Shown here piece after piece: positions 2,920 to 12,605 of a stretch of 25,508 nt of DNA. The DNA comes from a virus. The DNA is taken from IMG/VR virus record IMGVR_UViG_3300031141_000036, positions 1-25,508 of that record. One strand, 5' to 3'. The notes under the pieces were generated by a model. The model was not told the origin of the DNA, ran no database searches, and saw only the letters and a list, made by a program, of their open reading frames with translations. Within the stretch, counting starts at the first letter, position 1; each line of letters begins with the position of its first letter. The position numbers and the translations under genes are program-made.

Positions 2920-3152
2920 GCCTCGTTTGGCTTGCCCTTCTTGCCAGCAATTTGGTAGGGCTTTTCTTTTGTGTAGCCTCGGATCTGTGTGACGTTGTTA
3001 CTCTTCATGCCTTTAAGAAGCGCGGCGGACACATCAGGCAGTAGACCAGCCAGATCGCTTAACTCTTTTGTTGCGCTATCTAGGTTGGTCCAGCCTTTCT
3101 TGAAATCACAGATCGCCTCGATCACATGCTCGTGGGTTTCAGACTTAGCCAT
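2910..3152 (-). CDS. Hypothetical partner of the SNF2 gene (80 aa)
   Basis: The 80-residue, Lys-rich protein lies directly behind the SNF2-type helicase gene and overlaps its end by 31 bases from ATG 3152, which has an AGAGG site about 10 bases upstream. An in-frame GTG at codon 10 would instead give a GTGA overlap with the helicase stop, so the start is not certain. The helical N-terminal part (HVIEAICDFKKGW, SATKELSDLAGLLPDV) is followed by a basic tail (AGKKGKPNEAKK) that could contact nucleic acid. No family is recognised. Co-transcription with the helicase suggests it modifies or assists that enzyme, which is inference. Confidence 0.7.
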   Translation of the reverse strand: MAKSETHEHVIEAICDFKKGWTNLDSATKELSDLAGLLPDVSAALLKGMKSNNVTQIRGYTKEKPYQIAGKKGKPNEAKK

Positions 3153-4591
3153 TCTCTTGCGTCCTCTCCTAGAACCTTTGCACCGATATCGATCTTGGTG
3201 CGTAGTGCTTTAACAATGCGCTCATCGATGCTGCCTTCACAGATCAGATCGATGTACGTCACGTTGTTCTTCTGACCGATCCGGTGAGCACGATCCTCTG
3301 ATTGGATGCGCGTCTCCAGATTAAAGTCATTGGCATAGTACACTACGAGATTTGCTTCTGTCAAAGTCAGACCGTATCCAGCGGTTGCTGGGTTGCCGAC
3401 AAAGAACTTGAGCGGGTGGTTGGGGTTCTGGAAGTTAACAACGGCGGCGGCTCGATCATCATCCGATGTGTCACCAAAGTATGACACCGCACAGCCTTCG
3501 CCAAACTTCTTGTTCAGCATCTCTGTGATCTGGATGATGTCGTACCGAAACCGTGACCAGATGATTGCTTTACCATCGTGCTCGTTAACGATCTCCTCGA
3601 GCGCGTCCATCCTCTTTGATGGGAAGTATAGCATGTCACCTTCGTCAGTCTTGAGATGACCAGACATTATCTGTTGGAGCCGGAGCATCTGCGTGATTAC
3701 AGCGGGCGCCGTGGACATCTCACCACTGTCGAGAAGCACCATTGCGTGGCGCCTGATCTGTTCGTACATCTCGAACTGTTGTGTTGTCATGCCGACATAA
3801 CGCGCGGTGTATATCTTGTCGGGGAGATCGAGGCAGTCCTTCTTGAGTACACGGAAGGAGAACATGTCTATTCTCTCGGTCAGTTCGTCAAGATTGCGGA
3901 ACCCTACGATCTGTTGGAAGGCTGCGGCGCCCATGGTTCTACGTTGCACCACTGCATAACGTCCTTGGAAAGCGTAGTATGATTCGAAACCCAAGAGACC
4001 TGGGCGGAGGAACTCGCACTGCGAATAGATATCCATTGGACTTTTTGTAACTGGAGAGCCTGTCAAGAGGCGTCTGTACTTGAAGCCCGCGGCTATCTTC
4101 ATTAAAGATTTAGTGCGTTTGGCCTTGTGGTTTTTTATTGTTGTTGATTCGTCTATTGCAATCATACCCCTTGCGCCAAGCGCACGAGCCATCCACTGCC
4201 CAGCCTTCTGTCCTTTGAGCGATGAGTATGATTCGACATTCATCACGAAGATTGTCAGCCCCTCGAATTTATCTTGGACTGAGCGCATCTCTTCCTTTTG
4301 TTTCTTGTTGGGCCCAGATACCCAGCGAATCACTCGATGCGGGATGTCATCAGACATATGCTCGGGGATTTCTTTGGCCACCCAGTTGCGGTACACACCC
4401 TTGGGTGCGATGACCAAAGCGAAGTCGATCTGCCCATCGAGGTACAGCATACCCATGTTATCTATAAGGACCTTGGACTTCCCTGTTCCCATCTCCATGA
4501 ACAAACCAAACTCTGCCCTGTCCCACCCAAATTCAAGGGCATCTATTTGGTGGTCAAATGGTTTTAATTTATATTTTAACTTGACAGTCAT
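3122..4591 (-). CDS. SNF2-family (SF2) DNA-dependent ATPase/helicase (489 aa)
   Basis: All main SF2/SNF2 blocks are visible: motif I MEMGTGKS (residues 32-39), motif II as IAIDEST (about 144-150; the usual box is DEAH/DESH), motif III LLTGSP (175-180), motif V GNPATAGYGLTLTEA (about 405-420) and motif VI SEDRAHRIGQ (about 430-440). The RAHRIGQ string is a hallmark of SNF2 enzymes. Length is that of a minimal two-lobe motor without extra targeting domains. Such phage enzymes translocate on duplex DNA and are linked to replication or recombination. The gene is opposite in orientation to the genes on both sides. GGAG lies 7 bases before the ATG. Confidence 0.92.
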   Translation of the reverse strand: MTVKLKYKLKPFDHQIDALEFGWDRAEFGLFMEMGTGKSKVLIDNMGMLYLDGQIDFALVIAPKGVYRNWVAKEIPEHMSDDIPHRVIRWVSGPNKKQKEEMRSVQDKFEGLTIFVMNVESYSSLKGQKAGQWMARALGARGMIAIDESTTIKNHKAKRTKSLMKIAAGFKYRRLLTGSPVTKSPMDIYSQCEFLRPGLLGFESYYAFQGRYAVVQRRTMGAAAFQQIVGFRNLDELTERIDMFSFRVLKKDCLDLPDKIYTARYVGMTTQQFEMYEQIRRHAMVLLDSGEMSTAPAVITQMLRLQQIMSGHLKTDEGDMLYFPSKRMDALEEIVNEHDGKAIIWSRFRYDIIQITEMLNKKFGEGCAVSYFGDTSDDDRAAAVVNFQNPNHPLKFFVGNPATAGYGLTLTEANLVVYYANDFNLETRIQSEDRAHRIGQKNNVTYIDLICEGSIDERIVKALRTKIDIGAKVLGEDAREWLSLKPTSM

Positions 4592-4610
4592 TACATAGCT
4601 CCACTATTGT
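4581..4610 (+). promoter_or_regulatory. Sigma-70-like promoter for the replication module
   Basis: A perfect -35 hexamer TTGACA (4581-4586) is followed, after 18 bases, by TATTGT (4605-4610; four of six consensus bases). It points into the 4668-12808 gene run, with an expected start near 4617. The -35 lies inside the first codons of the divergent helicase gene. The untranslated leader of about 50 bases carries AGAGGA before the first ATG. Confidence 0.55.
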
Positions 4611-4618
4611 CCACATTA

Positions 4619-4648
4619 CGGATAGCATGAAGCTACCGGATAAATCAA
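4619..4648 (-). promoter_or_regulatory. Weak divergent promoter candidate for the SNF2 gene
   Basis: On the minus strand TTGATT (complement of 4643-4648), an 18-base spacer and an extended TGCTATCCG (hexamer complement of 4619-4624) resemble a sigma-70 site and would start transcription about 20 bases before the helicase ATG. A bulged dyad, GGaTAGC-N5-GCTACC at 4620-4637, overlaps it and could be an operator. The hexamer matches are modest. Confidence 0.3.
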
Positions 4649-4667
4649 CCCTGAAGAGGAAAAACTT

Positions 4668-4880
4668 ATGAACAGCAATAAACCCGTCCGCATTTTGCGG
4701 ATGAAAGACCTACCATCAAGGGTAGGGTTTCGGCCACCAACAATTTACGAATTGATAACAAAGGGTAAATTTCCAGCCCCTTTTAAACTAGTCCAAGGCG
4801 GCAAAGCCTCGGGATGGCTTGAAAGCACAATTGATTCGTGGATTGAAAATGCAGCCCGTCAAAGCGAGGGGGAGCAGTAA
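4668..4880 (+). CDS. AlpA/excisionase-like winged-HTH protein (70 aa)
   Basis: The 70-residue protein shows the AlpA-type pattern: RILRMKDL, then a turn and a helix GFRPPTIYELITKGKFPAPFKL, then SGWLESTIDSWIENAA. The conserved IY.L, FPxPxxL and W…I..W spacing is typical of AlpA/MerR-like small DNA-binding proteins. Family members act as excisionases or transcription regulators. AGAGGA precedes the ATG. It is the first gene after the divergent promoter, a usual place for an autoregulator. A second AlpA-like gene lies at 7977. No integrase is visible in the window, so a regulatory role is favoured. Confidence 0.82.
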   Translation: MNSNKPVRILRMKDLPSRVGFRPPTIYELITKGKFPAPFKLVQGGKASGWLESTIDSWIENAARQSEGEQ

Positions 4881-5440
4881 TGAACGATATCTTTGAAGAC
4901 TATTTCGATGAGGCAGACGCAGTCGCCAACATTGATGTAGGAACTGGAAAGCAACTCAGCCAACTGGTTCGAAAACTACGTGAGGTAGAAGATCAAATTA
5001 CTACTTCTGAAACCCACCTTAAATCACTCAAGCAAAAGAAGCATAAGCTCTCTGTGGAAAACATCCCCGCTCTAATGGACGAGATGGGTGTTGAGCGTTT
5101 GGATGTTGACGGCCTTACTGTAGAGCGGAGGATGGTTGTTAGCGCATCGATCCCTGTTGACCGCAGGGAGGAAGCGTATGATTGGCTCCGCGACAACAAG
5201 CTAGACGACATCATAAAGAACGATGTCATTCTTTCTTTTGGCAAGGGCCAAGACAATGTAGCAGGCGACGTGGTCGGACTGTTGCAGGAGCGCGGCTTTG
5301 ATCCAAGTACCAAGACGCATGTACATCCATCCACATTGAAGGCGTTCGTAAGAGAGCGCATCACAGATGGTAAAGCGATTGATCTCGACATGTTCGGGGC
5401 ATTCGTAACAAACACAGCACAGATAAAGAGGAAAGCATAA
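4880..5440 (+). CDS. Coiled-coil phage protein of unknown function (186 aa)
   Basis: Residues about 25-60 form a clear coiled coil (LVRKLREVEDQITTSE continuing to LKQKKHKL), followed by NIPALMDEMGVERLDVDGLTVE, a beta segment with S-A-S-I-P, and a helical C-terminal part including HPSTLKAFVRERI. The start overlaps the AlpA-like stop (TAATG). I have seen this architecture beside phage replication genes but cannot name a family. The coiled coil plus compact domain resembles Gam-type DNA-end-binding proteins only in outline, so a DNA-end or recombination role is conjecture. Confidence 0.78.
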   Translation: MNDIFEDYFDEADAVANIDVGTGKQLSQLVRKLREVEDQITTSETHLKSLKQKKHKLSVENIPALMDEMGVERLDVDGLTVERRMVVSASIPVDRREEAYDWLRDNKLDDIIKNDVILSFGKGQDNVAGDVVGLLQERGFDPSTKTHVHPSTLKAFVRERITDGKAIDLDMFGAFVTNTAQIKRKA

Positions 5441-5610
5441 TGAGCATTTCAAAACAAATGATGATGAGGGAAATGGACCGCATCGAGCGTGAAGAGTACG
5501 ATGAGGACGGCAACCCCAAACGCCCATTGTCGAGATCATCATTTGATAACGACGAGTTGGTTGAAGTGATTCAAAACTTACAAAAGAAAGCGGAGAAAGA
5601 TAATGGGTAA
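5440..5610 (+). CDS. Small charged protein (56 aa)
   Basis: ATG 5440 overlaps the upstream stop (TAATG), and GAGGAAAG lies just before it. The 56-codon frame ends at TAA 5608-5610, overlapping the next gene by 8 bases. The peptide starts MSISKQMMMREMDRIERE and has an acidic turn (EEYDEDGNPKRPLS) and a C-terminal helix ending in QKKAEKDNG. It is too short and charged to assign. The tight spacing on both sides argues that it is translated, possibly as an adaptor for the neighbouring ssDNA-binding candidate. Confidence 0.62.
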   Translation: MSISKQMMMREMDRIEREEYDEDGNPKRPLSRSSFDNDELVEVIQNLQKKAEKDNG

Positions 5611-6400
5611 TCAAGTAGCTACGAAAAAAAGTGCAGAGTTAAGCACAGACTTAATGGACGACATCCTTGAGTTCGCGGGTGAAGGCGCAACATACGACAG
5701 TAGCGAGATGCAGATCCCGTTCGTTCGTGTGCTTCAAGCTATGTCACCACAGTTGAAGAAGCGCGAAGCAGACTACATCGAGGGCGCTGAACAGGGCGAC
5801 ATGTTTAATACTGTCACCCAACAGTTCTTTGCTGCGGACAAGGGCGTCACAGTGATCCCATGCTACCAGACCACTAAGTATCTGGAGTTCACACCGCGTG
5901 ATCAAGGCGGAGGATTTCGTGGCGAGATCAGCCCAACCGATCCTATCTTACAGCGCACCGAGCGCCAAGGAGCCAAAGAAATCCTACCTACTGGCAACGA
6001 GCTAGTGAAGTCGGATCAGCATTACTGCTTGGTGATAGATGGGGACGGCATTAGTCAGCCTGTCGTGATCGACATGAAGTCTACGCAGTTGAAGGTCAGC
6101 CGTCGTTGGAAGACCCAGATTGCTATGCAGAAGATCAAGCACCCTACGTCAGGGAAAATGATCACACCACCCTTGTTCGCAACGCAGTGGAAGTTTACCA
6201 CTGTCGAAGAGAGCAATGACCAAGGTTCGTGGTTTAACTACTCTATTGAGAAGCTCGGTCTGATCGAAGACCGTGACCTCATGCTCGAAGCCAAAGCGTT
6301 CAGAGATAGCGTGGCAGCGGGTGAAGCAAAAGCTGTGTCGGAGGAGGGGAGCTCCACTCCCGCCGCCACTAAACCTTTGGACGATGACATCCCGTTCTAG
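5603..6400 (+). CDS. Putative ssDNA-binding protein with SSB-like C-terminal tip (265 aa)
   Basis: The last six residues are DDDIPF, identical to the C-terminal tip that bacterial SSB proteins use to dock replication and repair enzymes. It follows a Ser/Ala/Thr/Pro-rich linker (about residues 240-258), again like SSB. The main body, about 30-225, is mixed beta with conserved-looking strings (IPFVRVLQAMSPQLKK, IEGAEQGDMFN, KGVTVIPCYQTTKYLEF) and does not match the canonical SSB OB fold by eye. The length is close to T7 gp2.5 (about 230). Gene order (primase and helicase next) supports a replication role. The ssDNA-binding assignment is inference from tail, size and context. A terminator-like hairpin follows. 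Confidence 0.72.
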   Translation: MGNQVATKKSAELSTDLMDDILEFAGEGATYDSSEMQIPFVRVLQAMSPQLKKREADYIEGAEQGDMFNTVTQQFFAADKGVTVIPCYQTTKYLEFTPRDQGGGFRGEISPTDPILQRTERQGAKEILPTGNELVKSDQHYCLVIDGDGISQPVVIDMKSTQLKVSRRWKTQIAMQKIKHPTSGKMITPPLFATQWKFTTVEESNDQGSWFNYSIEKLGLIEDRDLMLEAKAFRDSVAAGEAKAVSEEGSSTPAATKPLDDDIPF

Positions 6401-6412
6401 GTAGCAGCTTTA

Positions 6413-6450
6413 GGGGGGACACATGTCCCAATCAAGTGTCCCCCTTTTTT
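6413..6450 (+). terminator. Intrinsic terminator with competing hairpin
   Basis: GGGGGACAC (6414-6422) pairs with GTGTCCCCC (6436-6444), a 9-bp stem followed by TTTTTT (6445-6450). The same left arm can instead form GGGACA (6416-6421) with TGTCCC (6424-6429). The two structures exclude each other, as in attenuators. The element sits between the abundant ssDNA-binding candidate and the primase, so partial termination would reduce primase expression relative to it. Confidence 0.75.
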
Positions 6451-6469
6451 CACCAACAAGGAGCAGAAG

Positions 6470-7993
6470 ATGTCACAAGCAAGCAGGTTGCTGGCCACCT
6501 TTGCGGGGGCGGGTAATGCACATGGCACAACTATTGTCGGACGGGTAGGCCGTAACGGAAAGGCCGAGTCACAGAGCCGAATAATCCGAGAGCCGTTGAC
6601 CGAGGCGCTAGTGCAGGCCCACATTGATGGGAAGCAGGGTGTCGGCGCAATTCCTATTACTGATGAGAACAAATGCCAGTTCGGCTGTCTGGACATAGAT
6701 GTCTACGATCTAAACCACGGCGAGCTCCAGGCTAAGATACAAAAGATGAAGCTACCTTTGATGCACTGCCGGTCCAAGTCGGGCGGTGCCCACCTGTACC
6801 TGTTTATGCAGGACTGGGAGACGGCGGCACAAGTTAGAGATTACCTGTCGGAGATGTCGATTGCGCTGGGCTACAGCGGGTGCGAGATATTCCCGAAGCA
6901 GGACACGATCATTGCCGAGCGTGGAGATGTGGGCAACTTTATTAACATGCCCTACTTCAACGCCGAGCTGCCCCAGAGGTACTGCTTTGACGAGAAAAAC
7001 GAAGCGATGGAGCTTGATGAGTTCCTTGATGCAGTAGAGAAGGCTAGGATCTCTTTGCCAGAGCTTGAGGGCTTGAAGTTTGCGGGAGAGCGTAAGCATT
7101 TCACCGATGGGCCGCCGTGCTTGGAGCATCTGTTTGCCGAGGGTCCGATCAATGAAGAGCGCAACAAGACTATGTTTATGTGTGGCGTCTATGACAAGCT
7201 CAAATACAGCGATGACTGGGAAGCGCGTCTCGAGGAAGACAACCGTACTCTCTGCGCGGATCCGCTGCCGTCACATGAAATTCTGAACCTCCGCAAGTCT
7301 CTGACCAAGAAGGACTGGGGCTACACATGCAAGGACCAACCGTTCAAGAGTTACTGTGATCCAGTCGTGTGTGCCGTGCGTAAGTTTGGGATAGGCAAGG
7401 ATGCTCCTGATGCGCCCGAGGTGGGAGGTCTGACGATCATGTTGTCTGAACCCCGTGTCTACTTCATGGACGTAAACGGCGGACGCATTCAACTATCAAC
7501 CGAGCAGTTGCAGAACCAAGTTCTGTGGCAACGTGCTTGTATGGAGCAGATGAACATCATGCCTCCGACAGTGAAGGCTCAGAAATGGCAGACAATGATC
7601 AATCAGTTGATGCAGACAGCCACTTATCTAGAGGTTCCAGAAGAAGCCACCATAAAAGGCCAGTTTAAGGACCACCTCCGCTCGTACTGTACCAGCCAGA
7701 TCAGGGCCATGGCCCCAGAAGAGATGGATATGGGCAAGCCTTGGACAGACGGGGGCACCACCATGTTTAAGCTGGAAGGTCTGATTGAATACCTGCATCA
7801 CCGCAGGTTCAAGGTCGAGAACCGAGGCAATCTGATCCAGATGATTCGAGATATGGGTGGCGACTCCTCAAGACAGAATATCCATAAGTCTGACGGGACA
7901 AGGACAATCATAAGATGTTGGTGGGTCCCTGCATTTGAAGCCGATAAAATTGAACTACCAATCAAGGAGATGAACGATGACATACCCTTCTAA
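6470..7993 (+). CDS. Archaeo-eukaryotic-type (AEP) DNA primase (507 aa)
   Basis: The AEP catalytic triad of motifs is visible: CLDIDVYD with Asp75 and Asp77 (metal binding), SKSGGAHLYLF with His108, and GNFINMPYF at about 155-163, the arrangement seen in TOTE/PrimPol-like primases. A cysteine cluster, CKDQPFKSYCDPVVC (about 286-300), suggests a zinc or Fe-S site. The C-terminal 90 residues look like a winged helix. It should synthesise primers for the PolA encoded downstream. No helicase motor is fused. Unexpectedly, the protein ends NDDIPF, an SSB-type tip. GGAGCAGAAG precedes the ATG, and the end overlaps the next gene by 17 bases. Confidence 0.85.
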   Translation: MSQASRLLATFAGAGNAHGTTIVGRVGRNGKAESQSRIIREPLTEALVQAHIDGKQGVGAIPITDENKCQFGCLDIDVYDLNHGELQAKIQKMKLPLMHCRSKSGGAHLYLFMQDWETAAQVRDYLSEMSIALGYSGCEIFPKQDTIIAERGDVGNFINMPYFNAELPQRYCFDEKNEAMELDEFLDAVEKARISLPELEGLKFAGERKHFTDGPPCLEHLFAEGPINEERNKTMFMCGVYDKLKYSDDWEARLEEDNRTLCADPLPSHEILNLRKSLTKKDWGYTCKDQPFKSYCDPVVCAVRKFGIGKDAPDAPEVGGLTIMLSEPRVYFMDVNGGRIQLSTEQLQNQVLWQRACMEQMNIMPPTVKAQKWQTMINQLMQTATYLEVPEEATIKGQFKDHLRSYCTSQIRAMAPEEMDMGKPWTDGGTTMFKLEGLIEYLHHRRFKVENRGNLIQMIRDMGGDSSRQNIHKSDGTRTIIRCWWVPAFEADKIELPIKEMNDDIPF

Positions 7994-8192
7994 TAGACTC
8001 CTGCGAGTAGGAGAAGTTGCCGAGATGTTGGGCGTGTCCAAGTCATACATCTACAAACTGGTGGCTCAGAAGACTGACTTCCCTCAACCGATTGTGCTTG
8101 GAGACGAGCACAGCAAGCGGTCATCCAGCCGATGGGTGCTTACCGAGATCGAGGATTGGGTGAACAGCAGGCCAAGGGGGAAAGATCTATGA
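7977..8192 (+). CDS. Second AlpA-like HTH protein (71 aa)
   Basis: The sequence follows the AlpA scheme: NRLLRVGEVAEMLGVSKSYIYKLV, then FPQPIVL, a Ser/Arg loop, and RWVLTEIEDWVNSRP. It aligns by eye with the 70-residue protein at 4668 at the LLR, IY.L, FP.P and W..I..W positions. It is squeezed between primase and helicase: its first 17 bases lie in the primase end and its stop is ATGA-coupled to the helicase start. Probable DNA-binding regulator, or an origin or helicase-loading accessory given the position; the latter is speculation. Confidence 0.82.
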   Translation: MTYPSNRLLRVGEVAEMLGVSKSYIYKLVAQKTDFPQPIVLGDEHSKRSSSRWVLTEIEDWVNSRPRGKDL

Positions 8193-9718
8193 TACCTAAT
8201 TCAAAACTAATCTTGGGGCCACCGGGCTGTGGCAAAACATATCGCTTGATCCAAGAGATCAAGGGCGCCTTAGAAGCAGGCACACATCCTTCTCGCATCG
8301 GGGTAATTTCGTTTACTCGCAAGGCTATAGAAGAGATGGTCACTCGGTCGTGTGCTGAATTATCGTTGGAGCCTACGGACTTTCCATACATGCGGACGAG
8401 CCATTCATTTGGGTTCAATGGTCTAGGCTTGCAGTCGCAAGACGTTATGCAGGTCTCGGATTATCAAGAGGTTGGGGCCATAGTAGGGCTGGACTTCGAA
8501 GGCAATGATCGGACCAGCGTGGATGACGGGATAAACCTGCCTACGCTCGGAGGATCAGGCGCCCAGTACCTTCAGATGATTACCCGTGCACGATACCGTA
8601 TGATCTCTTTGGACCGAGAGTTCAACGAAGCCGCCGACCGGACCCTGTTCTACCCGAAGCTCGAGCAAGTTAGTGCTCAGATCGAAGAGTACAAGCAAAG
8701 GATGAGCAAGTATGACTTTGTTGATATGATCGACAAGTACATCGAGATAGGGGAGCCGCCCCACCTTGACTACCTGTTTATCGATGAGGCTCAAGACTTC
8801 ACCCCGTTGCAGTGGGAGATGGCAAAGAAACTGGCCGATTTTTCGCAGCACACGATCATTGCCGGAGATGACGATCAAGCTGTGCACCGATGGACCGGTG
8901 TGAATGTAGACCTGTTTATCAATTCATCTGATGATGTAGAGATTTTAAAACAGTCGTACCGCATTCCTGTTTCCGTCCATAGGTTATCACAGCATATCGT
9001 TCAGAAGATTACTTCTCGGGTTGATAAAGAGTTTCTTGCCCGTGAGGAACTGGGCGAGGTAGAATTTGTTTGGAACATGGAGGACATCCCGTTCAGCGAA
9101 GGATCGTGGACCGTGATGGCAAGGACAAACACCTATGTCAGAGAGATGGCAAAGTGGTTCTACAGGACTGGCTTTAAGTTCTCGATCAAGGGCCGGTCCA
9201 GCATATCGGAGAAGCTCATTGAGAACATCATGGCATGGGACGAGCTGTGCCAGGATAAGAAGCTGGGCGTTGAGCGGATTAAGAAGTTGTATTCGGGGCT
9301 GCCCAAGCAGGGAGATGACGCGGTGGTAAAGCGTGGCGCAACCAAACGACTGGACACTTTGGAACCAGAAGACGAGCTAGACATGGCGGCCTTGATGTCG
9401 GACTACGGCTTGTTGCGCGGCGCGGACCATGCGGCATACGATGTGTTGAAGGTGGCTCACAGCATGCGACTGTACATCGAGGCTATCCAGCGAAGAGGAG
9501 ACAATCTTTTGTCCCCGCCACGGATTAATATCTCTACGTTCCACGCTATGAAGGGGGGCGAGGACGACAACTGCGTGGTGTATACCGCGTCCACCAAGGC
9601 GTGTGTCGAGAGCAAGCACCCTGATGACGAGCACCGTGCGTTCTACGTTGGCGTCACAAGGGCAAGACACTCTCTGTATATTCTACAATCTAACAACAAC
9701 TACAGGTACACAATATGA
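8189..9718 (+). CDS. UvrD/Rep-like SF1 DNA helicase (509 aa)
   Basis: SF1A motifs are complete: Walker A GPPGCGKT (residues 10-17), Ia ISFTRKA, motif II DEAQD (about 198-202), motif III AGDDDQAVHRWTG (about 224-236), motif IV QSYRIP, motif V STFHAMKGGEDDN (about 448-460) and motif VI FYVGVTRARHSLYIL (about 482-496). The length is short for UvrD (about 720) because accessory 1B/2B domains are reduced. I set the start at ATG 8189, ATGA-coupled to the AlpA-like stop and preceded by AAGGGGG, because it is 7-8 residues from the Walker A strand. It is a 3'-5' translocase by family and the likely replicative or repair helicase here. Confidence 0.9.
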   Translation: MIPNSKLILGPPGCGKTYRLIQEIKGALEAGTHPSRIGVISFTRKAIEEMVTRSCAELSLEPTDFPYMRTSHSFGFNGLGLQSQDVMQVSDYQEVGAIVGLDFEGNDRTSVDDGINLPTLGGSGAQYLQMITRARYRMISLDREFNEAADRTLFYPKLEQVSAQIEEYKQRMSKYDFVDMIDKYIEIGEPPHLDYLFIDEAQDFTPLQWEMAKKLADFSQHTIIAGDDDQAVHRWTGVNVDLFINSSDDVEILKQSYRIPVSVHRLSQHIVQKITSRVDKEFLAREELGEVEFVWNMEDIPFSEGSWTVMARTNTYVREMAKWFYRTGFKFSIKGRSSISEKLIENIMAWDELCQDKKLGVERIKKLYSGLPKQGDDAVVKRGATKRLDTLEPEDELDMAALMSDYGLLRGADHAAYDVLKVAHSMRLYIEAIQRRGDNLLSPPRINISTFHAMKGGEDDNCVVYTASTKACVESKHPDDEHRAFYVGVTRARHSLYILQSNNNYRYTI

Positions 9719-10386: not shown

Positions 10387-10708
10387 TGAGATCCTAGACA
10401 CCGCAAAAGAACTGATCAATGGGCCGAGGGCCAAGGACTACGGCGATGCGTTCGACAACCACAGCAGAATAGCCGAGGGGTGGAACATCATCATGAACGG
10501 GGCTCTGATAAGCCACGGCTACCTGACTGCGCAGCACGTTGTGTTGATGATGGACTGGGTGAAGACAGCTCGGCTGCTTAATACGCTGGATCATGACGAT
10601 TCATGGACGGACAAGGCAGGATACACTGCCCTTGGGGGTGAGTTCTCCGAGAGGGTACGCGAATCCAACGAGCGCATGACTAAGTACGGAGTTACTAAGA
10701 ATGACTAA
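10376..10708 (+). CDS. DUF6378-like protein (110 aa)
   Basis: The sequence matches the pattern I associate with DUF6378: ILDTAKELINGPRAKDYGDAFDNH near the start, a middle helix with VVLMMDWVKTARLLNT, and DSWTDKAGYTALGGEF at the end. The YGD, K.AR and D..GY positions are the conserved ones. The family is widespread in phages and has no established function. GGAGAAAGAAG precedes the ATG, and the end overlaps the polymerase start by 8 bases, so it is probably made together with the polymerase. The YGD/KxxR/DxxGY pattern recalls small all-helical nucleotide-handling proteins, but that is speculation. Confidence 0.78.
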   Translation: MKRDEILDTAKELINGPRAKDYGDAFDNHSRIAEGWNIIMNGALISHGYLTAQHVVLMMDWVKTARLLNTLDHDDSWTDKAGYTALGGEFSERVRESNERMTKYGVTKND

Positions 10709-12605
10709 TCTATTTGGCAGCGATTTGCACCACCAGTTCAAGGGAGAGCTAAACTTAGTTGATCAGGACTGGCATATCCCTACGGAGTTTCCTGATTTAA
10801 CAGGCTACAAAGATGTGGCCGTGGACCTTGAGACCAAGGATCCTAACATCCAGACCTTGGGCCCAGGTTGGGCTCGTAAGGACGGTCACATCATTGGGAT
10901 TGCTGTGGCCGCCGGAGAATACAAGGGCTACTTCCCGATCCGCCATGCCAACGGCCACAACCTAGACGCTAAGATTGCAATGCGCTGGCTTGCCAAGCAG
11001 ATGGCCGTGCCTGACATGAACGTGATTATGCACAACGCAACCTACGATGCGGGGTGGATGAGAGCCGAGGGTGTAGAGATCAAGGGTCGGATCATTGACA
11101 CTATGATTACCGGTGCTCTGGTGGACGAGAACCGTTGGTCCTTTGGGCTTGACGCTATGGCTCGGGATTATGCCAGCGTTCGTAAGGATGAGAAGCTGTT
11201 GAAGGCTGCGGCTCAAGAGTGGGGCATCAACCCAAAGGCGGAGATGTGGAAGTTGCCACCTAAGTATGTTGGCGCCTACGCCGAGCGGGATGCCGTGGCA
11301 ACACTGGCGCTATGGAACGCACTGAAGATAGAGCTTGAAGAGCAAGAGTTGTGGCACATCTGGAACATCGAGACTGACCTGATCCCCTGCATGCTGGACA
11401 TGCGGAGCAACGGGGTACGGGTGGATTTGGACAAGGCCGAGAGGAACAAGAAGTTTATCCGTAATAAAACTAAAGAGCTTCGTAAATCTATTCAAAAGGA
11501 AAGTGGTGTAGAAGTTGACATCTGGGCGTCCGCATCCATTGCAAAGATGTTTGACAAGATGGGTCTGACGTACCCCAGAACCGAGAAGGGCGCTGTCTCG
11601 TTCACAAAATCGTGGCTCAACAGTCACCCGTCAGAAATCTGCCAACAGTTAGTTAAGCTCCGTGAGTTCGACAAGGCTGACAGCACGTTCATCGACAGCA
11701 TCCTGCGGCATGAGCACAACGGTCGCATCCATACCGAGCTACACTCCACGCGCAGGGACGAAGGCGGCACGGTTACTGGGCGGTTCTCTTCTTCGAACCC
11801 CAACCTCCAGCAGATTCCGGCGAGAGACAAGGACATCAAGAAGTTAATCCGTGGGTTGTTTATACCAGAGGACGGATACAAGTGGGGATCGTTCGATTAT
11901 TCTAGCCAAGAGCCAAGATTGTTGGTACACTTCGCGGCCAGCGTGGGGAGCATGCCTCGCAAGGATCTTCTTGACGACATCGTCCATGAATACAACACCT
12001 CAGACGTAGACTTGCACCAGATGGTTGCCGACCTAGCGGGCATTAGCCGCAAGGAAGCCAAGGCCGTGAACCTGGGAATCATGTATGGCATGGGGGCAGG
12101 CAAACTAGCCGACCAGATCGATGTCTCCTTCGAAGGGGCCAAAGAACTGATGACCCAGCACCGCAACAAAGTCCCGTTTGTTAAGGCGCTTGCTGAGATG
12201 GCATCTCGTAGAGCTTCTAGCCACGGGCAGATCCGTACTCTACTAGGCCGCAAGTGCAGGTTTCATCTTTGGGAGCCAACTAAGTTCGGCACCGGCAAAG
12301 CCCTGCCACATGATGAGGCTCAGAAAGAATACGGCGGCCCCAACGGCATCAAACGAGCGTTTACTTACAAGGCGTTAAACAGATTGATCCAAGGATCGGC
12401 GGCCGACCAGACTAAGAAAGCGATGCTTGATTGCTACCAAGCGGGACATACCCCTATGCTGACAGTTCATGATGAGCTATGCTTTAACATAGATAGCACG
12501 GAGCAAGCGAACCACATCAAAGAACTTATGGAAACAGGCGTAGAGCTCAAGGTGCCATCTAAAATTGACGTAGATATCCAAGCAGATTGGGGAGACATAG
12601 AATGA
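10701..12605 (+). CDS. polA: Family A DNA polymerase with 3'-5' exonuclease (634 aa)
   Basis: Exonuclease motifs: VDLETKDP with Asp42 and Glu44, MHNATYDAGW (about 113-122) and YAERDA (about 193-198). Polymerase motifs: A as FDYSSQEPRLL (about 397), B as RKEAKAVNLGIMYG (about 450-463) and C as VHDE with His590, Asp591 and Glu592. The order is that of T7-type and PolI proofreading enzymes without the 5' nuclease domain, and 634 residues is typical. The residue at the position of E. coli Phe762 is Leu458. It is the replicative polymerase by context, coupled to DUF6378 upstream and to the next gene by ATGA. No DnaJ-like cysteine module is inserted. Confidence 0.95.
   Translation: MTNLFGSDLHHQFKGELNLVDQDWHIPTEFPDLTGYKDVAVDLETKDPNIQTLGPGWARKDGHIIGIAVAAGEYKGYFPIRHANGHNLDAKIAMRWLAKQMAVPDMNVIMHNATYDAGWMRAEGVEIKGRIIDTMITGALVDENRWSFGLDAMARDYASVRKDEKLLKAAAQEWGINPKAEMWKLPPKYVGAYAERDAVATLALWNALKIELEEQELWHIWNIETDLIPCMLDMRSNGVRVDLDKAERNKKFIRNKTKELRKSIQKESGVEVDIWASASIAKMFDKMGLTYPRTEKGAVSFTKSWLNSHPSEICQQLVKLREFDKADSTFIDSILRHEHNGRIHTELHSTRRDEGGTVTGRFSSSNPNLQQIPARDKDIKKLIRGLFIPEDGYKWGSFDYSSQEPRLLVHFAASVGSMPRKDLLDDIVHEYNTSDVDLHQMVADLAGISRKEAKAVNLGIMYGMGAGKLADQIDVSFEGAKELMTQHRNKVPFVKALAEMASRRASSHGQIRTLLGRKCRFHLWEPTKFGTGKALPHDEAQKEYGGPNGIKRAFTYKALNRLIQGSAADQTKKAMLDCYQAGHTPMLTVHDELCFNIDSTEQANHIKELMETGVELKVPSKIDVDIQADWGDIE

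Follow-up and report, generated by a model that had tools for sequence, protein, structure and literature searches.

Organization of the replication cluster

The window, meaning the whole 25,508-base stretch of phage contig that was analyzed, carries a replication cluster in which a SNF2-type helicase lies on the minus strand and the remaining cluster genes lie on the plus strand. The plus-strand genes are, in order, an AlpA-like HTH gene, a gp33-like DUF7307 gene, a gp34-like gene, an AEP primase, a second AlpA-like HTH gene, a UvrD-like helicase, DUF6378 and DNA polymerase A (PolA). The features considered here are listed below.

3122..4591, minus strand: SNF2-type helicase belonging to this replication cluster, an alternative receptor candidate (ORF and profile matches)
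4668-4880, plus strand: first AlpA-like gene (ORF)
4880..5440, plus strand: gp33-like DUF7307 protein, upstream neighbour of gp34 and an alternative receptor candidate (profile match)
5603..6400, plus strand: gp34-like putative ssDNA-binding protein, 265 aa; Pfam PF23977 Pam3_Gp34, PHROG 2402 (profile match; AF2 model with OB-like core)
6332..6397, plus strand: gp34 C-terminal linker and tip, residues 244-265, predicted disordered (AF2 pLDDT; linker varies among relatives)
6380..6397, plus strand: gp34 tip DDDIPF (translation; conserved in close relatives)
6470..7993, plus strand: AEP-superfamily primase, 507 aa; PF22548 AEP-TOTE, phrog_21866 primase (profile, CAPP fold match, invariant motifs)
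7931..7990, plus strand: primase C-terminal tail, residues 488-507, predicted disordered (model pLDDT)
7973..7990, plus strand: primase tip NDDIPF (translation; conserved in close relatives)
7977..8192, plus strand: AlpA-like HTH gene, starting inside the primase tip in another frame (ORF, profile match, overlap in relatives)
8132..9718, plus strand: UvrD-like helicase, an alternative receptor candidate (profile matches)
10701..12605, plus strand: PolA, leading candidate for the presumed shared receptor (profile matches; PolA co-occurrence)

A gene of similar size to gp33 is found upstream of gp34 in the relatives as well. The sequence MEDIPF also occurs in the UvrD-like helicase, where it is internal and not C-terminal.

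Translation of the two central ORFs gives C-termini of ...KPLDDDIPF for gp34 and ...KEMNDDIPF for the primase. The first-pass annotation had reported adjacent proteins with DDIPF ends written in different codons, and both observations are borne out: the plus-strand ORFs at 5603-6400 and 6470-7993 end in LDDDIPF and NDDIPF, with tip codons GACGATGACATCCCGTTC in gp34 and AACGATGACATACCCTTC in the primase. The bodies of the two proteins come from separate families and their tips are encoded differently, which rules out recent copying of one tip from the other. These are the only two proteins of the window with the same last three residues, and such sharing was found in just 5 of 11,335 within-genome pairs (359 predicted genes from six genomes).

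Identity of the two tip-bearing proteins

gp34 belongs to the Pam3_Gp34 family (PF23977), matching over residues 14-243 with 221.9 bits against a cut-off of 27 (E 1.3e-65), and matches to the family were obtained in 503 phage records. With the gp34 sequence as query, no solved structure was matched. The AF2 model has a confident core and a disordered tail, with pLDDT below 50 for residues 249-264. The solved folds closest to this model are phiC31 RDF (Z 8.3), T4 gp32 and RB69 gp32 (both Z 6.9) and then OB-fold SSBs. The VIA-align superposition on T4 gp32 covers 155 residues at an rmsd of 4.5, which is modest, as a Z below 8 can reflect a common arrangement, and Foldseek, with a best E of 0.027 and no clear hit, does not by itself give a confident fold. 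The bacterial SSB profile PF00436, which finds a match in 10 of 14 genomes used as controls, is absent from the window and from 19 related records, making gp34 a reasonable candidate for the SSB of the phage. As in the bacterial SSB C-terminus (SSB-Ct), its acidic-IPF tip stands on a disordered linker (pLDDT below 50 in gp34). We regard gp34 as a candidate phage SSB with a predicted OB-like fold that may be near that of T4 gp32 and through which it may bind ssDNA.

With phiC31 RDF as the nearest fold, there is a hint that RDF gp3 and the gp34/gp32-like proteins may have common ancestry. In Vibrio phage K300 (L164) the annotated SSB (5146-5625) ends FDDGIPF, and gp34 (3917-4711) ends DDIPAEM, lacking a terminal tip.

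The primase matches AEP-TOTE (PF22548) with 49.9 bits against a cut-off of 27, placing it in that family, and its predicted structure resembles the prim-pol domain of CAPP (E 5e-10). Residues D75, D77, S102-K103-S104 and H108 are invariant, as are cysteines 217, 287, 296 and 301. Profile searches of the primase gave no match to a helicase domain. Beyond the last strand of the model (478-487) the block pLDDT is 48-50, and the last 20 residues are probably disordered.

Conservation of the tips in close relatives

Among close relatives in IMG/VR, all 145 complete primases and 144 of 145 gp34 proteins end in xIPF, counts that are to be read knowing that the loci overlap, and so are not all independent, and that the primase set is partly selected, one of the six search patterns (PIKEMNDD) falling in the primase tail. 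Within the window clade, gp34 entropy is about 0.1 bit at each of the last three positions and 2.6-3.0 bits at positions -7 to -9; the linker differs among relatives in both sequence and length, and acidic residues occur at -4 to -6 in nearly all tips. At one locus (L075, 3587-4408) the gp34 frame shifts just before the tip and extends to the primase, through either a sequencing error or a natural frameshift.

Two near-complete relatives (44 and 40 kb) contain no [ILV]PF ends beyond those of gp34 and the primase, and in HTVC027P, MW202510, the window and these two relatives the tip is found on just two proteins per genome. When a third tip-bearing protein was sought in five phage genomes and the two near-complete relatives, the only finds were, in DSL-LC04, an ORF of 62 aa that ends APF and, in Barton-type phages, a separate DDDLPF protein.

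Co-variation of the tips across distant clades

To collect distant relatives, gp34 proteins of several phages served as queries, supplemented with annotated phages, and 288 non-identical pairs were obtained. Across these, the last residues of gp34 and of the primase are paired as IPF/IPF, DIV/NIV, xPF/SPF, PFA/PFV and PEL/PDL; two phages read later add SEF/AEF and GEF/SEF. IPF/IPF accounts for 66 pairs, DIV/xIV for 46, xPF with SPF, APF or TPF for about 50, and AVF/AFF for two. The HTVC027P pelagiphage clade combines DIV on gp34 with NIV or EIV on the primase; the DSL-LC04 clade combines xPF with SPF or APF, and includes the AVF with AFF case; MW202510 has PFA with PFV, and the locus L415 has PEL with PDL (EPEL/EPDL in full). 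A scan for further pairs of the MW202510 type found none. In MW202510 itself (L411, MW202510.1 13704-14597) gp34 was missed in the GenBank annotation, where an opposite-strand and probably spurious ORF is shown instead.

Not every clade conforms. Weaker cases are the 023Pt clade (TPY/xxF, with aromatic ends as the only common feature) and L416 (SEM/PEL). In about 58 HTVC023P-type pairs gp34 ends VPF against FRT (FHTGKFRT) on the primase, and in Nanhaivirus gp34 ends VPF against GQD or GEA, so that in both groups the primase is without the tip; L418 is a mismatch (STD against SEF). Three phages whose gp34 had previously been unread were checked later: Kokobel2 (HSEF/KAEF) and Bhz9 (GGEF/KSEF) match, while PSA28 (NNDM/RSEF) does not.

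When the primases were shuffled among 11 clades, p lay between 2e-4 and 1e-3 for comparisons of two to four terminal residues, and there was no signal at residues further inside. Because some of the 11 clades had been defined partly by their tips, the test was repeated with clades cut by primase-body identity only. Permutation p was then 0.03-0.07 at 40% identity, 0.002-0.02 at 45-50% and about 1e-4 to 4e-4 at 60%, to be read with the independent clades being few (6-11) and mutually related and the coarsest cut only borderline. The tips thus change together across distant relatives, at p 0.0001 to 0.07 depending on the clade cut. The refuting case named in the first-pass annotation, homologous primases without an acidic-IPF end and a tip peculiar to this sequence, does not hold among the close relatives, which uniformly retain xIPF; distant primases do end otherwise, in most clades in agreement with their own gp34. 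The tip observation is real and conserved, and more informative than had been supposed.

Overlap of the primase tip with the AlpA-like gene

The second AlpA-like gene (ATG at 7977) begins within the primase tip, so that 17 nt, stop codon counted, are common to the two genes, an arrangement overlooked in the first-pass annotation and kept in 65 of 67 relatives. In the window clade the overlap takes in the last 14 nt before the primase stop, and the TTC codon is invariant. Conservation of the primase tip within this clade is consequently weak evidence when taken alone, and does not independently prove that selection acts on the protein. The primase tip could be a by-product of the downstream overlap, held in place by a start codon and ribosome-binding site and having no docking role, with the gp34 tip alone being functional. 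The near-universal retention of the overlap and the invariant TTC agree with this, and overlaps can indeed dictate tails: in HTVC023P-type primases (L161, L419-L498) the conserved FHTGKFRT end overlaps the start of the helicase gene, and gp34 there keeps [VT]PF. However, the isoleucine and proline codons of the window clade vary only synonymously (ATC/ATA and CCA/CCC, in few events) while the other frame does change its residues (MTSHSN, MTYPSN, MKSHSN). In the SPF, IV and xxF clades the overlap is at most about 4 nt, yet the tips are kept with free synonymous variation. Primases of the SPF type lack a long overlap, and their tips draw on all four proline codons and both phenylalanine codons; this free codon use shows that the protein itself is selected. 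A by-product would also not be expected to match the tips of gp34, as the primase tips do. On this codon and overlap evidence the by-product reading appears already weakened, and we consider it very improbable.

Resemblance to host SSB tips

The first-pass annotation proposed competition with host SSB for partners such as PriA, RecO, RecQ and chi. More broadly, both tips might fill the SSB-Ct pockets of host PriA, RecO, RecQ, chi, ExoI and DnaG, recruiting or blocking these proteins. The window-clade tips, DDDIPF and NDDIPF, are perfect SSB tips, nearly all tips of the clade have acidic residues at -4 to -6, SSB-Ct pockets are common to many host proteins (PMC5872125), and [IV]PF ends were present in 31 of 31 alphaproteobacterial SSBs sampled. 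This sample is not specific to Pelagibacter, for which the rhodopsin bait had retrieved mainly SAR86 and betaproteobacterial sequences.

Nevertheless, the tips of other clades depart jointly from the SSB sequence (DIV/NIV, EPEL/EPDL, xEF/xEF), and the GSPF tails of DSL-LC04-type primases are net positive, at +0.73 over nine residues. Furthermore, Barton, Bhz9 and PSA28 place a host-type DDD[IL]PF end on a separate protein of 104-109 aa, with gp34 and the primase ending differently, so that the two tip types look functionally distinct. Small proteins of this kind (84-109 aa, ending DDD[IL]PF or DDIPF) adjoin PolA in Acinetobacter/Pseudomonas-type relatives (L413 30725-31048; L617 4868-5194; L619 5820-6131; L417 7820-8074); Barton's has no Pfam match and that of Bhz9 is annotated as SSB. 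In view of the joint drift and of this third small protein, we rate host mimicry as secondary and, as an account of both tips, unlikely. Competition with host SSB is likewise disfavoured as a general mechanism, although binding of host partners by the perfect SSB tips of the window phage is possible.

A proposed shared docking site

As the two tails change together, the simplest reading is one shared pocket, and the co-variation supports the other suggestion of the first-pass annotation, a receptor shared with the ssDNA-binding protein. gp34 and the primase would each end in a flexible tail that bears an equivalent docking peptide. The OB-type core of gp34, judging by its predicted fold, would coat ssDNA with the tip held out, and the primase would present the same tip; one pocket on a common replisome partner may accept both, and exchange or avidity at that pocket would coordinate ssDNA coating, priming and primer hand-over. 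Both tips probably dock on a common partner, most likely a phage-encoded replication protein, and on balance we lean towards one phage-encoded partner serving gp34 and the primase alike.

By analogy with T7, this partner would most likely be the phage's own PolA. PolA is encoded by the window and by all 13 other examined records having both gp34 and this primase, which makes it the first candidate; overall it is found in 16 of 19 related records, plus the window. We infer this identity from co-occurrence and hold it tentatively, as a specific claim that is on the unlikely side. The helicases, gp33 and gp34 itself are further receptor candidates. Hera, SG1 and Pluto have gp34 (ending AEQF, AEEF and ADNF) without a PolA match, so the gp34 tail has at least one other use. 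Counting against a shared tip are the HTVC023P and Nanhaivirus clades, with a PF tip on gp34 and none on the primase, together with the PSA28 and L418 mismatches and the aromatic-only match of the 023Pt clade.

Were gp34 itself the receptor, its own tail would fold into its ssDNA groove, a behaviour proposed for T7 gp2.5, and the same groove would recruit the primase tip to gp34-coated DNA. Pairwise co-variation would then be explained with no third protein, as would the persistence of the gp34 tip where the primase has none. There are precedents in the Enc34 SSB, whose tail inserts in a neighbouring molecule's groove in crystals, and in T7, where competition between the gp2.5 tail and ssDNA is reported (PMC5686142, with its reference 14). 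The tail is, however, unplaced in the AF2 monomer, which tests little. We judge this arrangement distinctly unlikely.

Returning to a common partner, the tip could be regarded as a replisome address tag: carried by an SSB-like protein and a primase in phages with PolA and an AEP primase, it would drift with one evolving pocket as a lineage code (IPF, IV, PF, EF, EL), and some lineages would add the host-type DDDIPF code on a third small protein. This broader picture is possible, but we give it somewhat less than an even chance.

Comparison with known systems

The window tips have the sequence of the bacterial SSB-Ct (DDDIPF) and likewise end disordered, variable linkers. Unlike in bacteria, their bearers lie outside the SSB family (no PF00436 match), one of them is a primase, and relatives carry non-SSB tips yet keep the match between gp34 and primase. 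The Enc34 ORF6/DUF2815 T7-type SSBs are phage OB-fold ssDNA-binding proteins with a disordered C-terminal tail (PMC5686142), as candidate gp34 would be; however, no sequence relation to gp34 was found, and the gp34 model is nearer gp32 and phiC31 RDF. The Pam3_Gp34 family (PF23977, PHROG 2402), of which gp34 is a member, is annotated without function, and both its SSB-like fold and the pairing of its tip with that of the primase are proposals made here. The AEP-TOTE and CAPP (CRISPR-associated Prim-Pol) primases share the primase's catalytic domain, to which the match is confined. No earlier report of SSB-like tips on phage primases was found in the open-access literature, which is weak evidence of novelty.

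The closest parallel is T7, and the first-pass description of a tip-bearing primase as unusual is only partly right, since the T7 gp4 primase-helicase ends ...DWSNDTDF and gp2.5 ends ...EADEDGDF. The A-family polymerase gp5 has basic patches to which the tails of gp4 bind (PMC12593628), and the gp2.5 tail has been implicated in contacts with the polymerase and primase-helicase (PMC5686142). In both phages the SSB, or candidate SSB, and the primase of one replisome have disordered C-terminal tails with short tips that match each other (DGDF and DTDF in T7), and the window phage also encodes an A-family DNA polymerase, the receptor in T7. The differences are that T7 has a primase-helicase fusion, where an unrelated AEP primase is found here; that the SSB candidate is of another fold class, nearer T4 gp32; and that the window tip is of PF type, switches identity between clades and has a presumed receptor. 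The mechanism is probably one in which two proteins share a docking tip as in T7, with the partner proposed by this analogy.

If this is true, a DDIPF end in a phage should not always be taken as host SSB mimicry. A function would be suggested for the unnamed gp34 family, with natural paired variants available for locating the partner and its pocket. The T7 solution, an SSB and a primase with matching tails, would then recur, from unrelated parts, in aquatic phages that form a large and abundant group.
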